Assembly (NCBI GenBank): GCA_902558795.1
Contig: CACEFI010000005.1
Span: forward strand, 1-43,629
Direction: 5' to 3'
DNA from: an uncultured Pelagibacteraceae bacterium
GTDB taxonomy: Bacteria > Pseudomonadota > Alphaproteobacteria > Pelagibacterales > Pelagibacteraceae
Length of the DNA: 43,629 nucleotides
The position numbers and the translations under genes were made by a program. Positions 22,239 through 31,025 of the stretch are shown piece after piece. The notes under the pieces were generated by a model that was not told the DNA's origin, did not search any database, and saw only the letters and a program-made list of their open reading frames with translations. Each line of letters begins with the position of its first letter. Position 1 is the first letter of the stretch.

Positions 22239-22766
22239 TTAATGTCCTGGAAAATCAATTAAGTTTTCAACATTATAATTATTTTTCACTAATTTATCCG
22301 ATCCACCTAAATCAAATAAGTTAATTACAAATACAAATGCTGATACTTTACTTTTTGACATTTCAACAAGTTTAGCAGCAGCTTCCGCAGTTCCACCAGT
22401 CGCAATTAAATCATCTATGATTAAAACAGTATCATTCTCATTTAATGAATCTTTATGAACTTCAATTGTAGCTGTTCCATACTCAAGTTCAAAATCAATT
22501 GAATGAACATCAGACGGTAATTTATTTTTTTTTCTAAACATTATAAATGGTTTTTTTAAAATATAAGAAACTGCAGATGCAAAAACAAAACCACGAGATT
22601 CTATTGCTGCAATTTTTGTAAAGTTATATTTTTTTGATCTTTCAACTATTTGATTAATAGTTTCTGCAAATGCTATTTCGTCCTTTATTAGTGTGGTTAT
22701 ATCTCTAAATAAAATACCTTTTTTAGGATAATCAGGAATTGATCTAATATAATCTTTTAAATTCAT
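22239..22766 (-). CDS. apt: Adenine phosphoribosyltransferase
   Basis: IPDYPKKGILFRDITTL, AAIESRGFVFA, VLIIDDLIATGGTAEAA. Confidence 0.96.
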   Translation of the reverse strand: MNLKDYIRSIPDYPKKGILFRDITTLIKDEIAFAETINQIVERSKKYNFTKIAAIESRGFVFASAVSYILKKPFIMFRKKNKLPSDVHSIDFELEYGTATIEVHKDSLNENDTVLIIDDLIATGGTAEAAAKLVEMSKSKVSAFVFVINLFDLGGSDKLVKNNYNVENLIDFPGH

Positions 22767-22807
22767 AATAGTTAAATATATAAGTATAGATAATTAAATT
22801 TTTTACT

Positions 22808-23680
22808 ATGACAACTAATAAATTAGCAATAATTGGTGGAAGTGGTCTTTATGATGTTGAGGAGTTTAAAGATAGAGAATTACTTGATCTAAATACACCA
22901 TGGGGAAAACCATCAGATCAAATTCTAAAAACAATCTACAATAATAAAGAAGTTTATTTTTTACCAAGACATGGAAGAGGTCATTTTATTTCACCATCAA
23001 ATATTAATTTTAGAGCAAATATTGATGCACTTAAACAATTAGGAGTGACAGATATTGTTTCTGTTTCTGCCGTAGGATCTCTTAAAGAAGATCTGCCCCC
23101 TGGAAAATTTGTTATAGTGGATCAGTTTATAGATAGAACATTTGCAAGAACAAAAACTTTTTTTGACGACGAAATTGTTGCACATGTTTCAATGGCTCAC
23201 CCAACATCAAATGGATTGATGAATGCTTGTGAGGAAGCAATTAAAAAATCAAATATAGATTATCAAAGAAACGGTACTTATGTTGTTATGGAAGGTCCGC
23301 AATTTTCTACATTAGCAGAGTCTAATTTATATAGATCATGGAAAGCAGATGTAATTGGAATGACAAATATGCCTGAAGCAAAACTCGCAAGAGAAGCTGA
23401 AATTAGATATGCATCTGTTTCAATGGTGACTGATTTTGATTGTTGGCACCCAGATCATGAAAATGTTGATGTTCAACAAGTAATAAAAGTTTTATTAGGA
23501 AATGCTGAAAAAGCAAAAGTGATGATTAAAAATTTAATTGATAATTTTGAAGATCATATTGATCCAAATGATCCAACCAATAATTGTTTAGATGTAGCAA
23601 TAATTACAGCTCCAGAAAAACGGACCCAAAAAACAATAGATAAGTTAAAAACTGTTGCTGGTAGAGTTTTGAGTAAATGA
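22808..23680 (+). CDS. mtnP: S-methyl-5'-thioadenosine phosphorylase
   Basis: IGGSGLYD, LPRHGRGH, SAVGSLKED, VVMEGPQFSTLAES, GMTNMPEAKLAREAEI, VTDFDCW. Confidence 0.95.
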   Translation: MTTNKLAIIGGSGLYDVEEFKDRELLDLNTPWGKPSDQILKTIYNNKEVYFLPRHGRGHFISPSNINFRANIDALKQLGVTDIVSVSAVGSLKEDLPPGKFVIVDQFIDRTFARTKTFFDDEIVAHVSMAHPTSNGLMNACEEAIKKSNIDYQRNGTYVVMEGPQFSTLAESNLYRSWKADVIGMTNMPEAKLAREAEIRYASVSMVTDFDCWHPDHENVDVQQVIKVLLGNAEKAKVMIKNLIDNFEDHIDPNDPTNNCLDVAIITAPEKRTQKTIDKLKTVAGRVLSK

Positions 23681-24747
23681 AAATTCAAGGAAAAGAATAT
23701 CGAACAATATGGTATGAAGATAAGCTAGTAAAAATAATTGATCAAACAAAACTTCCTCATCAATTTATAATAAAAGATCTCAAATCAGTTAAAGACGCTA
23801 TCAATGCAATCAAAGTTATGGAAGTTAGAGGCGCTCCCTTAATAGGAGGAACGGCTGCTTATGGTATAGTATTAGCTATTAAAGAGAGCACAGATAAAGA
23901 ATTTATTTATAAAAGTGCAGAAGAATTAATTCAATCAAGACCTACAGCAATTAATTTAAAATGGGCCGTTGATCGTATGATGAATAAATTATCTGGAATT
24001 AATAGTGATCAAATCTTAGATATCGCTTTAAAGGAAGCACAAGAAATATGTGATGAAGATGAAAAGTTTTGTGAAAATATTGGTATTTATGGATTAAAAA
24101 TAATTGAAGAAATTTATAAAGAAAAAAAAGATACAGTTAATATTTTAACTCACTGCAATGCAGGATGGTTAGCAACTATTAATTGGGGCACAGCAACATC
24201 ACCAATTTATCATGCTCACAAAAAAGGAATTCCAGTTCATGTCTGGGTTGATGAAACTAGACCTAGAAATCAAGGTGCAAATTTAACTTCATATGAATTA
24301 AATGAGGAAGAAATACCCAATACTATAATTGCTGATAATACTGGTGGTATTTTAATGCAAAGAGGTGAGGTTGATATGTGTATTGTAGGAACAGACAGAA
24401 CCTTATCAAATGGAGATGTATGTAATAAAATTGGAACTTATCTTAAAGCTTTAGCAGCACATGATAATAAAGTTCCTTTTTATGTTGCACTTCCAAGCTC
24501 AACAATTGATTGGAATATAAAAGATGCAAAAGATATTCCAATAGAAGAGAGAAATTCAGAGGAATTATCTCATGTCGAGGGTGTTGATGAGAACAATCAA
24601 ATTAAAAAAGTTTTAATATATCCAAAAAAAAGCAAAGCAATGAATCTTGCTTTTGATGTTACTCCAGCAAAGTATGTAACAGGTTTGATAACTGAGAAAG
24701 GTATTTCCAAAGCTTCTTCTGAAGGATTAAAAAAGTTATTTAAATAA
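23677..24747 (+). CDS. mtnA: S-methyl-5-thioribose-1-phosphate isomerase
   Basis: EVRGAPLIGGTAAYG, LTHCNAGWLAT, VDETRPRNQGA, VGTDR; overlaps mtnP by 4 nt. Confidence 0.96.
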   Translation: MKIQGKEYRTIWYEDKLVKIIDQTKLPHQFIIKDLKSVKDAINAIKVMEVRGAPLIGGTAAYGIVLAIKESTDKEFIYKSAEELIQSRPTAINLKWAVDRMMNKLSGINSDQILDIALKEAQEICDEDEKFCENIGIYGLKIIEEIYKEKKDTVNILTHCNAGWLATINWGTATSPIYHAHKKGIPVHVWVDETRPRNQGANLTSYELNEEEIPNTIIADNTGGILMQRGEVDMCIVGTDRTLSNGDVCNKIGTYLKALAAHDNKVPFYVALPSSTIDWNIKDAKDIPIEERNSEELSHVEGVDENNQIKKVLIYPKKSKAMNLAFDVTPAKYVTGLITEKGISKASSEGLKKLFK

Positions 24748-24748
24748 T

Positions 24749-26782
24749 TTATCTAAGAGAGGCGGCAATATTTCCACCATCAACTGTTAAAACAGCTCCA
24801 GTAGTTTTTTTTGAAACTGCTAAATGAAAAAAAGCTTTTGCTACATCTTCTGCTTTTACTTCGTTTAAAAGTAAGTTTCCTCTCATATATTCATCGGTTG
24901 AAACTTCTCTTGCTTTAGCTCTAGATTTAATCATTCCATCATTAAGTAAACCACTTCTTATTCTATCAGCATTAACACCATTAGACCTTATTCCGAGTGA
25001 ACCATAATCTACTGCATATTGTTTGCATAAGTTTAGTAGTGCCGACTTTGGTAATCCGTAAGGTCCAAAGTTTTTTCCAGGATTTACAGATTGTTTTGAT
25101 ATATTAAATAATAAACAGCCCTCGATATTCTGTTTTTTCATTATCTTAATTGTTTCTGAGGCACAATTTTGATGAGAAAAAAAATTATCCTCAAAACTTT
25201 GCCTTAAAATTTTATCATCTACTTCAGCTATAGAGCCACCAATTGCTGATCCAGCATTAGAGATTAGAATATCAATTCCACCATAAGTTTGTGCAATAAT
25301 TTTGAAAGCTCTTTTAACACTATCTATATTTGTTACATCACAATGTAAGCAAAGGTCTTTTACTTTTGATTTCATTTCATTTACTTTTTGTAAATTGTAA
25401 TCAAGCAAAACTACTTCAGCTCCATAACTCTTGAAAAGTTTATAAGTAGCAGCACCTATCGCTCCAAAACTTCCAGTTATAACAGCAACATTGCCTTGCA
25501 GTTCTTTTTTAACATTTTTAATTTTAGCTTGTTCTAAAGACCAATATTCAACATCAAATAAATCTTTTTCAGGTATAAACTTATAGTTAGAAGTTTCTTC
25601 AACAGAAGAAATCACTCTTGCATTTGTTTCAGTTAAATCTCCGGCAATTTTAGCAGCACCCAAACTATCTCCAACACTAAATAGCCCAACATTTTGAACC
25701 AATATAACTCTTGGAGAGGTGTCTAACATTGTTTTTTTGCCTTTTACTTTCTTCTTATTGGTGTCAAAATATTTAATATATTTTCTTCTATAATCCTTAA
25801 AACACTTTTCAGCTAATTTTTTAAAATCTCCTAAAGTAGAGTTTGGTTTGGGTGTAATAACTAATGGAAATGGTTTAACTCTTATAACATGATCAGGTGT
25901 GGCTGTACCAAGACCAGTGTATCTTCTGACTTCTTTACCATTGATAAAATAGTCTAAAATTTTATTAGATCTGTAATTTACTATAAATTTATTTGTTTTA
26001 GATTCAGACAACAATCCTCTTAGTATTGGAGAAATTTCATGTGGTTTAAATGAGTTATTGTATCTTTTTATTTGTTTTATCTTTTTTCTTTTAAACTTTT
26101 TGACTGCCCGCTCAGCAATTGATACGTATTTAATCATTAAGTCATAAGATTTTTTAGCATCATCATCAAAAGTAAAAATCCCATGATTTAAAAGAATTAA
26201 ACAATTGATATTTGGATTTTTTGAATAAACCTCATTAATTTTTTGGGCTAATCCAAATCCCGGCATTACATAAGGAACAATACTAACTTTAGAGCCAAAT
26301 ATTTTTTTACAAAGATCTTTACCATTTGGTCTATTTGTAACATTCATTATCGCATCTGAATGAGTGTGGTCTACAAACTTAAATGGTAAAAAAGCGTGTA
26401 AAAAAGTCTCTACCGAGGGGTTAGGAGATTTGATGTCTATTAAATTTCTTTTTTGAAATGCAACCATATCTTCATCGCTTAAATATTTTTTATTTTTAAG
26501 AGACAACAAAGGATTTAATTTTACTGCTGGCAGACCTGCTGGCTCAATTTCAGCCATATCCCATCCACTTCCTTTAACACATAAGACATCATAATTTTTG
26601 CCATCAATATCTTTTATGGATGTTTTTACAGAAGTGTTTCCACCACCATGAAGAACTAGTTCACTATTTCTTCCCAATAACCTGGTTGTATAAACACGTA
26701 AAGCCATATCCCTTGAATGACCAAGTTTTTGGTACTTGTTTATGTATTTTTTAGCTTCTAAATTTGACCAATCGTTTTTCAC
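24749..26782 (-). CDS. Bifunctional class II aldolase / short-chain dehydrogenase
   Basis: Aldolase: HGGGNTSVK, VDHTHSDAI, NHGIFTF; SDR: ITGSFGAIGAA, SNAGSA, YGLPK. Confidence 0.93.
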   Translation of the reverse strand: MKNDWSNLEAKKYINKYQKLGHSRDMALRVYTTRLLGRNSELVLHGGGNTSVKTSIKDIDGKNYDVLCVKGSGWDMAEIEPAGLPAVKLNPLLSLKNKKYLSDEDMVAFQKRNLIDIKSPNPSVETFLHAFLPFKFVDHTHSDAIMNVTNRPNGKDLCKKIFGSKVSIVPYVMPGFGLAQKINEVYSKNPNINCLILLNHGIFTFDDDAKKSYDLMIKYVSIAERAVKKFKRKKIKQIKRYNNSFKPHEISPILRGLLSESKTNKFIVNYRSNKILDYFINGKEVRRYTGLGTATPDHVIRVKPFPLVITPKPNSTLGDFKKLAEKCFKDYRRKYIKYFDTNKKKVKGKKTMLDTSPRVILVQNVGLFSVGDSLGAAKIAGDLTETNARVISSVEETSNYKFIPEKDLFDVEYWSLEQAKIKNVKKELQGNVAVITGSFGAIGAATYKLFKSYGAEVVLLDYNLQKVNEMKSKVKDLCLHCDVTNIDSVKRAFKIIAQTYGGIDILISNAGSAIGGSIAEVDDKILRQSFEDNFFSHQNCASETIKIMKKQNIEGCLLFNISKQSVNPGKNFGPYGLPKSALLNLCKQYAVDYGSLGIRSNGVNADRIRSGLLNDGMIKSRAKAREVSTDEYMRGNLLLNEVKAEDVAKAFFHLAVSKKTTGAVLTVDGGNIAASLR

Positions 26783-26868
26783 CGTTTCAACCTCTGCGAA
26801 GTATTATAATAGTTTTTTGTTTGAAAGAAGTAAAAAATTTGATTAGTAAGGCTTCATCATACAATAAA

Positions 26869-27909
26869 ATGACAAAAGTAGGCGAACATATAACCCTAGA
26901 TATTATAGGTACAACCAAGGAGTATGATCCATCTTTGTATGAGAAAGTCATTAAAGAAATTGCAAAAGCCGCAGATGTTACAATTCTAAATATTTCAAAA
27001 TATAAGTTTGAACCACAAGGTTTTACTATTTTAGCTTTATTAGCAGAAAGCCATATTAGTTTTCATACATTTCCAGAAAAAGGAATCATTAGTTTTGATT
27101 TTTTTACTTGTGGAAAAATTAGCCCATCAGTAGCAATCGATATAATTAAAAAAGAATTTGCACATAAGAGAATTGTTAAGAAAGAATTTAATAGAGATAC
27201 AAAATCTTTGTATCACGATATTTATAGCTCTCCAGGTTTACAAAAATCATATGTCGTTAATGACGTACTTGAAGATTTTAAATCAAAAGTTGGTCAACAC
27301 ATTGAAATTTTAGAATTAGAACAGTTTGGTAAGTCATTATTTATTGATGGAGAGATACAAGTAGCTTCAACAGATGAACATTTATATAGCTCAACTTTTG
27401 TGGGTGCAGGCCTACATTTAAATAAAAATAATGAAAGAGCAGCTATTATTGGTGGAGGAGATGGAGGAGTTGCTAGAGAATGTATATCTAAAAATTTTAA
27501 TTTTATTGATTGGTTTGAGCTGGACCCAGAGGTTGTAGATGTATGTAATAAACATCTAGGAGATATTGGAAAAAAAGCTACTGAAAAAAATTCTGTAAAA
27601 TGTGTTTGGGGTGATGCTTTTGAAAGCATCAAATCAATAGAAGATGATACGTATGATCATATATTTGTTGATCTTAATGATGATCAGTTTTGTATAGACC
27701 TTGCAGCAAAAAATATGGACTCTATGATTAGAATATTAAAACCCAAAGGGGTAATCACTGCTCAGGTTGGAAGCCAAGATAAAAAACCTAAGCAAGTTGA
27801 TAGTTGGTTGAATGTATTTAATCATCACTTTGGAAACACTAAATTATCAAGAGTTTATATCCCTAGTTTTGATTGCTCTTGGAATTTTTCATCGTCAATA
27901 AATCATTAA
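26869..27909 (+). CDS. Fused S-adenosylmethionine decarboxylase (SpeD) - spermidine synthase (SpeE)
   Basis: SpeD processing motif ESHISFHTFPE; SpeE GGGDGGVARE and DHIFVDLNDD; internal ATG at 26869 preferred over ORF start 26764, whose 35 extra residues are not family-like. Confidence 0.9.
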   Translation: MTKVGEHITLDIIGTTKEYDPSLYEKVIKEIAKAADVTILNISKYKFEPQGFTILALLAESHISFHTFPEKGIISFDFFTCGKISPSVAIDIIKKEFAHKRIVKKEFNRDTKSLYHDIYSSPGLQKSYVVNDVLEDFKSKVGQHIEILELEQFGKSLFIDGEIQVASTDEHLYSSTFVGAGLHLNKNNERAAIIGGGDGGVARECISKNFNFIDWFELDPEVVDVCNKHLGDIGKKATEKNSVKCVWGDAFESIKSIEDDTYDHIFVDLNDDQFCIDLAAKNMDSMIRILKPKGVITAQVGSQDKKPKQVDSWLNVFNHHFGNTKLSRVYIPSFDCSWNFSSSINH

Positions 27910-30236: not shown

Positions 30237-31025
30237 ATGTTTTTATCAGAAAAACAAATTAAAGATTATCAAACTAATGGAGTGATAATTGTTAAAGATA
30301 TTTTTAAAGATTGGATAGAGCCATTAAGAAAAGGTTTCCAAAAGGTTTTGGATAAACCCAGTAAACATGGGCGAGAAAATGTAGATGGTAGTGATGGTAG
30401 ATTTTTTGAAGATTATTGTAATTGGGAAAGAATAGAAGAGTTTAAAGATTGTATTTTTAATTCACCTGGAGCCCAAATTGTTGCTGAAGCAACTAATTCT
30501 AAATCATCTCAAATTTTTCATGAACATATATTTATAAAAGAACCAGGCACATATAAAGAAACACCTTGGCATCAAGACATGCCTTATTACTGTGTTGATG
30601 GTAACGATACTGGAAGTTTTTGGATACCATTAGATGAAGTTGATCAAAAAAATAATCTTAAATTAATTTTAGGTTCTCATAAATGGTCAAAGTTAATTAG
30701 ACCAACAAAATGGTCCAATAACCAATCCTGGTATAATGATGATAGTTCTTTTATGGATTTACCATCATTAAAAGAATTTGAAAAAAATATTCTAATTCCA
30801 GAATTAAGTTTGGGTGATGCTGTTTTATTTAATTTTAAAACTGTACATGGCTCAACTGGAAATAATACTTCTAAATCGAGGAGGGCATTTTCAATGAGGT
30901 TCATAGGAGATGATGTGAAATATATTGATAGAGGAGGAGCAACATCTCCACCATTTGATGGAATTAATTTAAAAATTGGAGATGTAATGAGAGAGGATTG
31001 GTTTCCAAAAGTTTTTAATAGCTAA
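30237..31025 (+). CDS. Phytanoyl-CoA dioxygenase (PhyH) family Fe(II)/2OG oxygenase
   Basis: HQDMPYY (HxD) and TVHGS distal His; FWIPLDEVDQKNNLKLILGSHK. Confidence 0.88.
   Translation: MFLSEKQIKDYQTNGVIIVKDIFKDWIEPLRKGFQKVLDKPSKHGRENVDGSDGRFFEDYCNWERIEEFKDCIFNSPGAQIVAEATNSKSSQIFHEHIFIKEPGTYKETPWHQDMPYYCVDGNDTGSFWIPLDEVDQKNNLKLILGSHKWSKLIRPTKWSNNQSWYNDDSSFMDLPSLKEFEKNILIPELSLGDAVLFNFKTVHGSTGNNTSKSRRAFSMRFIGDDVKYIDRGGATSPPFDGINLKIGDVMREDWFPKVFNS

Follow-up and report, generated by a model that had tools for sequence, protein, structure and literature searches.

Methylthioadenosine (MTA) is a toxic by-product of polyamine synthesis. The DHAP shunt, which relies on a class II aldolase along with MtnP and MtnA, is established (PMC5893883, PMC10986504, PMC6079011); it consists of MtnP or of MtnN plus MtnK, followed by MtnA and an aldolase of the Ald2/DrdA type, and has been described in R. 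rubrum, R. palustris, some E. coli and B. thuringiensis. In R. palustris, the aldehyde released by the aldolase appears as 2-methylthioethanol, and the alcohol dehydrogenase held responsible is called no more than putative (PMC5893883). Universal methionine salvage, comprising MtnB, MtnC/W/X, MtnD and MtnE, has MtnP and MtnA in common with the locus analyzed here. On the side of MTA production, the fused SpeD-SpeE proteins of Ca. Pelagibacter HTCC1062 and HTCC7211 are functional AdoMet decarboxylases and spermidine/spermine/thermospermine synthases (PMC11107197); we noted no treatment of the fate of MTA in that work.

Proteins combining a class II aldolase with a short-chain dehydrogenase (SDR) are known from a different context. 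In RhaEW, studied in B. subtilis (YuxG) and C. aurantiacus, the aldolase yields DHAP and lactaldehyde, and the SDR oxidises lactaldehyde with NAD+ (PMC3870299). Lactate is made, and no reductase activity with NADH was found (PMC3870299). A further NCBIfam family, NF006192, is named 'bifunctional aldolase/short-chain dehydrogenase' with no substrate stated; the present work ties this family to MTA salvage. Already known are the DHAP shunt with its sets of mtnP, mtnA and aldolase genes, the two-domain layout of RhaEW and the fused SpeD-SpeE; new here are the interchangeable aldolase slot, the division of the fusion family along lines of both context and sequence, and a gene proposed for the aldehyde step. 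Our literature search, with subscription papers mostly outside its reach, returned nothing that links an aldolase-SDR fusion to MTA or that deals with MTA disposal in SAR11, and no assay of any member of the subfamily described here.

The apt-mtnP-mtnA-fusion-speDE locus

The window, that is, the whole stretch of 43,629 nucleotides that was analyzed, comes from a 770-kb, 63%-complete metagenome-assembled genome (MAG) of Pelagibacteraceae (SAR11). A preliminary description, made from the sequence alone, had placed five genes at 22239-27909, namely, apt, mtnP, mtnA, an aldolase-SDR fusion and speD-speE, and profile and domain searches bear out this set:

22239..22766, minus strand: apt, adenine phosphoribosyltransferase (NCBIfam TIGR01090, 194 bits, cut-off 185.85)
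22808..23680, plus strand: mtnP, 5'-methylthioadenosine phosphorylase (NF006492, 445 bits, cut-off 437; TIGR01694, 307 bits, cut-off 274.85)
23677..24747, plus strand: mtnA, methylthioribose-1-phosphate isomerase (TIGR00512, 420 bits, cut-off 279)
24749..26782, minus strand: aldolase-SDR fusion, 677 aa, GTG start (NF006192, 888 bits, cut-off 639)
26108..26695, minus strand: class II aldolase domain of the fusion, residues 30-225 (PF00596, 78 bits; Aldolase_II match at 30-224)
24755..25498, minus strand: NAD-type SDR domain of the fusion, residues about 429-676 (PF13561/PF00106; SDR match at 431-670)
26783..26868, no strand: 86-bp spacer from which the fusion and speDE diverge
26869..27909, plus strand: speD-speE fusion, AdoMet decarboxylase joined to an aminopropyltransferase, 346 aa (TIGR03330, 97 bits, above cut-off; SpeE domain PF01564)

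Four of the five genes (apt, mtnP, mtnA and the fusion) score above curated models. In speDE, the SpeD part exceeds the cut-off of the AdoMetDC model (TIGR03330), and the SpeE domain is divergent, scoring 126 bits, below the 260-bit cut-off of NF002010. The divergent orientation of speDE relative to the fusion stands as previously described, but the proposed TTG start at 26764 does not: the relatives begin with MTKVGEHITL, which places the start at the ATG at 26869, and the TTG start would overlap the fusion. In architecture and genus, this protein matches the Pelagibacter SpeD-SpeE of PMC11107197, to which it adds nothing new; MTA production at the locus rests on the experiments with these close relatives (PMC11107197).

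The mtnP and mtnA genes overlap by 4 nt, the fusion and mtnA lie tail to tail with their ends 1 nt apart, as had been noted, and apt is divergent from mtnP in the mapped sister genomes. In agreement with the preliminary description, neither mtnB/C/D/E nor a rhamnose gene was identified within the window. A scan of the module for promoters and terminators, including the 86-bp spacer, gave no excess over shuffled sequences.

The closest named relatives of the fusion come from single-cell genomes and MAGs labelled Pelagibacteraceae, with up to 93% identity. The protein belongs to NF006192 by score over residues 1-677, and falls below the cut-off of TIGR02632 (RhaD_aldol-ADH; 439 bits, cut-off 567.75). 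Family alignments show that, in the aldolase half, the catalytic acid E125 and the metal-ligand histidines H139, H141 and H200 are invariant. The SDR half carries TGxxGxxG, D461, indicative of NAD preference, and a classical N533-S562-Y575-K579 tetrad, in which N533, Y575 and K579 are invariant and S562 is more than 90% conserved. In the AlphaFold model (mean pLDDT 88.9), the aldolase domain matches the solved class II aldolase domain 3m4r with a TM-score of 0.93 by target length, and in a fold search the SDR part matches many NAD-dependent SDRs. Between the two domains lie about 200 residues (about 230-425) that match no Pfam family, are modelled with pLDDT mostly above 85, and contain two motifs, TPD, which is invariant, and EYWSLEQAK, which is nearly so.

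Exchange of aldolases beside speDE in SAR11

We searched 170 relatives and determined gene adjacency in 82 speD-bearing genomes of the genus by comparing coordinates by hand; many genomes are incomplete, and statements of absence apply to the group rather than to single genomes. The fusion is present in 24 of the 170 relatives. Its co-occurrence with mtnA, named in the preliminary description as a check, holds in all 24, compared with 62 of the 146 fusion-free relatives. In most fusion-free species of the genus, a gene transcribed with mtnA lies between mtnA and speDE, and its product is a stand-alone aldolase of class II, about 217 aa long. This protein is similar to FucA and to DrdA (6btd), the 5-deoxyribulose-1-P aldolase, as structure matches show, and it shares 47% identity with the aldolase encoded in the mtnP-apt-mtnA-aldolase operon of a larger alphaproteobacterium. 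Beside speDE in the 82 genomes, we found the FucA/Ald2-like aldolase 58 times, the fusion 18 times and both in no case, that is, exactly one of the two class II aldolases adjoins speDE in 76 of 82 genomes. Among the other six, one locus (G045) is truncated where its contig stops, and five genomes (G012, G019, G057, G062, G074) lack mtnP-mtnA-aldolase and have a nucleosidase-like gene instead.

In paired loci, homology breaks only between mtnA (or a block adjoining mtnA) and speD. A stand-alone locus (L149) and a fusion locus (L126) align at 91% and 80% in the flanks around gaps of 670 and 2117 bp, respectively, and between the window and a complete genome with the stand-alone aldolase (G082), the alignment (86%) stops at the end of mtnA and resumes (85%) at the start of speD. 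BLAST detected no significant similarity between the fusion aldolase and the stand-alone FucA-like aldolase, which implies that an analogue was swapped in. On the mtnA tree, a single-gene tree with some poorly supported branches, the state of the slot changes at least 9 times by parsimony, with 3 changes forced by well-supported branches.

The nucleosidase-type loci (L154, L069, L083, L077, L339) encode an MTA/SAH-nucleosidase-like protein (PF01048) of about 175 aa between apt and speDE. This protein scores under the curated nucleosidase cut-offs, and the putative nucleosidase gene is a third alternative module at the apt-speDE locus of SAR11. The mtnP-mtnA-speDE locus is also an insertion hot spot (L122-L126, L132, L149, L119, L120, L161). 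In some species, either a block of TRAP transporter, sulfatase-like and FAD/fumarylacetoacetase-like genes or asparaginase II/DUF1015 genes lie between mtnA and the aldolase gene, and in several species (L124, L126, L149, L128, L119), a gene for a PhyH-family dioxygenase or an alpha/beta hydrolase-like protein occupies the same place between mtnP and mtnA, the dioxygenases being relatives of the window gene at 30237-31025. In G066 (L125), the interval from mtnA to the fusion contains a 217-aa ORF, which was considered as a possible second aldolase but is unlike one in sequence.

Other potential consumers of 5-methylthioribulose-1-P (MTRu-1-P) were sought in a search that covered MtnD, MtnB and the RuBisCO-like protein. 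Consistent with the gene content first noted in the window, MtnD (ARD) was above cut-off in 0 of 170 relatives, weak matches being dismissed as sub-cut-off, with the sole one in the genus a small cupin-like ORF. No RuBisCO-like protein was detected in any SAR11 relative. Apart from the fusion, which is the only PF00596 match in the (incomplete) genome of the window, four other PF00596 proteins of the genus were examined, and none comes near the cut-off of the MtnB model TIGR03328; the extra proteins, about 240 aa long, fall by score into different families of aldolases. The joint absence of MtnD and the RuBisCO-like protein argues against universal methionine salvage and the MTA-isoprenoid shunt, and SAR11 appears to have no alternative MTRu-1-P consumer among MtnD, the RuBisCO-like protein and MtnB.

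The fusion family and RhaEW across alphaproteobacteria

In a class-wide sample of 318 alphaproteobacteria, 9 encode RhaEW, 55 encode a fusion of the type found in the window (hereafter, mtn-type), and 254 have neither. The TIGR02632 scores are bimodal, with 9 proteins at 850-1090 bits, above the cut-off of 567.75, and 55 at no more than 520 bits, leaving a gap from 520 to 850. The nine true RhaEW form one clade, separated by a long branch from the remaining fusions. RhaI adjoins RhaEW in three loci, those whose matching neighbour was scanned; mtnP or mtnA is near none of the nine RhaEW loci, and a single genome of the nine carries mtnA. The wider co-occurrence expected at the outset is seen as well: mtnA is present in 51 of 55 genomes with the mtn-type fusion, compared with 91 of 254 with neither type. 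Within the 6-kb span examined, mtnP and/or mtnA accompany the fusion in 31 of 49 loci, typically in the order mtnP-(apt)-mtnA-fusion, and in a second sample of wider taxonomic range, mtn linkage was seen in 21 of the 36 loci from outside SAR11, with one gammaproteobacterial MAG and one from Marinimicrobia among them. Fisher P values, uncorrected for shared ancestry, are 10^-15 for the class-wide co-occurrence and 4x10^-4 for locus linkage relative to RhaEW.

Fixed active site differences parallel this split. In the aldolase, NPSVET of the fusion corresponds to AASIDT of RhaEW (E125 versus D), and PYVMPG to PWxRPG; in the SDR, N533 is replaced by L, and SKQxxNPGxxFGxY corresponds to SKNxxxASxxASAY.

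About a third of the alphaproteobacterial mtn-type loci have no mtn genes nearby, with mtnA located elsewhere in most of these genomes, so that another role is possible in those cases. Detectable mtnA is missing in 4 of the 55 fusion genomes, among them the 99%-complete G185, whose family member sits on a long branch (L322). This genome and G414, both of 1.4 Mb and from one genus, differ in that G414 has a true RhaEW (L279), whereas G185 has the long-branch mtn-type fusion and no mtnA, and a second change of substrate is possible in this pair. Two genomes (G349, G442) encode, in addition to the mtn-linked fusion, a second, very divergent aldolase-SDR fusion of about 660 aa on its own long branch (L327, L328). 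In another family of the SAR11 order (L135:8244-9383), an mtnP-mtnA-fusion operon is followed by a gene judged by eye to be agmatine deiminase-like, a polyamine link.

A putative DHAP shunt coupled to polyamine synthesis

We consider it likely that the locus is a compact MTA-disposal module of the DHAP-shunt type coupled to polyamine synthesis, with the fusion serving as an MTRu-1-P aldolase joined to an aldehyde-handling SDR. SpeDE generates MTA, and three members of established enzyme families follow: MtnP splits MTA into adenine and MTR-1-P, Apt recovers the adenine as AMP, and MtnA isomerises MTR-1-P to MTRu-1-P. The aldolase half would then cleave MTRu-1-P to DHAP and 2-methylthioacetaldehyde or, if 5'-deoxyadenosine enters, 5-deoxyribulose-1-P to DHAP and acetaldehyde, whereupon the SDR half would use NAD(H) to convert this reactive aldehyde. 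In its slot, the fusion takes the place of the stand-alone Ald2/DrdA-like aldolase of most sister species. The exchange with an Ald2-like enzyme in the same slot, the gene linkage and the presence of E125, H139, H141 and H200 all point to MTRu-1-P cleavage by the aldolase half, and MTRu-1-P is very likely the substrate of the fusion.

Like the described DHAP shunt, the locus combines adjacent mtnP and mtnA with a class II aldolase, and no mtnB or mtnD was found; most sister SAR11 species have an Ald2/FucA-like aldolase in the slot. In contrast to the FucA-like Ald2/DrdA, the fusion aldolase represents another branch of PF00596 and is joined to an SDR, so that our claim is that the locus works like the DHAP shunt with an analogous aldolase. 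Compared with universal methionine salvage, MtnD was not found in the 170 relatives, and no MtnB-type protein is among the aldolases examined.

The family resemblance raises the question of whether the fusion is a genuine RhaEW, the mtnA neighbourhood being incidental. The two proteins share an N-terminal class II aldolase, a C-terminal SDR and a similar chain length, and the 439-bit match to TIGR02632 reflects distant homology. Yet the fusion lies below that cut-off, across the gap in scores, and in a separate clade; RhaEW has its rhamnose context, with RhaI alongside in the three loci scanned and mtn genes in none of nine neighbourhoods, whereas no rhamnose isomerase RhaI was found in the 170 relatives. 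The one FGGY kinase hit of the genus that was inspected, considered as RhaB, reads by sequence as GlpK and lies beside glycerol/transport genes. Together with the fixed differences of the active sites, such as NPSVET versus AASIDT, with E125 replaced by D, and N533 by L, this makes the identity with RhaEW highly improbable. The main substrate might instead be 5-deoxyribulose-1-P derived from 5'-deoxyadenosine, a waste product of radical-SAM enzymes, with MTA secondary. MtnP/MtnA/aldolase trios do process 5-deoxyribose compounds (PMC6079011), and DHAP-shunt enzymes accept both substrates, but in all 76 SAR11 genomes with both genes the aldolase gene directly adjoins speDE, the source of MTA, and the species without mtnP-mtnA-aldolase have an MTA-nucleosidase-like gene in the same place, so that we regard this reading as quite unlikely.

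There is a small chance that the aldolase half acts as proposed, while the SDR half acts on another compound or is structural only. RhaW has been reported as necessary for the activity of RhaE, and RhaEW without NAD+ gave no DHAP (PMC3870299); moreover, in the sister species the stand-alone aldolase functions with no SDR attached. Against such a role, the SDR tetrad and the NAD-binding aspartate are conserved family-wide. Returning to the aldehyde-handling function, the aldehyde step of the DHAP shunt is one for which the fused SDR naturally suggests itself, and the chances appear roughly even that the aldehyde is reduced to methylthioethanol, as in R. palustris, or, by analogy with RhaEW, oxidised to methylthioacetate. 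Given that RhaEW is oxidative and needs NAD+ even for aldol cleavage, oxidation is a live alternative, and we tentatively entertain a branch of the DHAP shunt that is oxidative and yields NADH, in which the SDR would turn 2-methylthioacetaldehyde into methylthioacetate. The SDR tetrad was set aside as a guide to redox direction because Asn here takes the place of Leu in RhaEW, so that the direction of RhaW is not transferable.

SAR11, the ocean's most abundant bacteria, occur in very large numbers in its surface waters and rely on reduced sulfur. The comparison offers a testable answer as to how they would dispose of MTA: through a nucleosidase, through mtnP-mtnA with an Ald2-like aldolase, or through mtnP-mtnA with an aldolase-SDR fusion. 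A large subfamily labelled rhamnulose-1-phosphate aldolase by homology acquires a likely pathway, which implies that the name is wrong, and the DHAP-shunt aldehyde step, assigned to a 'putative alcohol dehydrogenase' in the R. palustris work, acquires a named candidate gene. If the oxidative branch exists, its end product would be an organosulfur acid, unreported in the MTA literature searched, made in some of the most abundant cells of the ocean.
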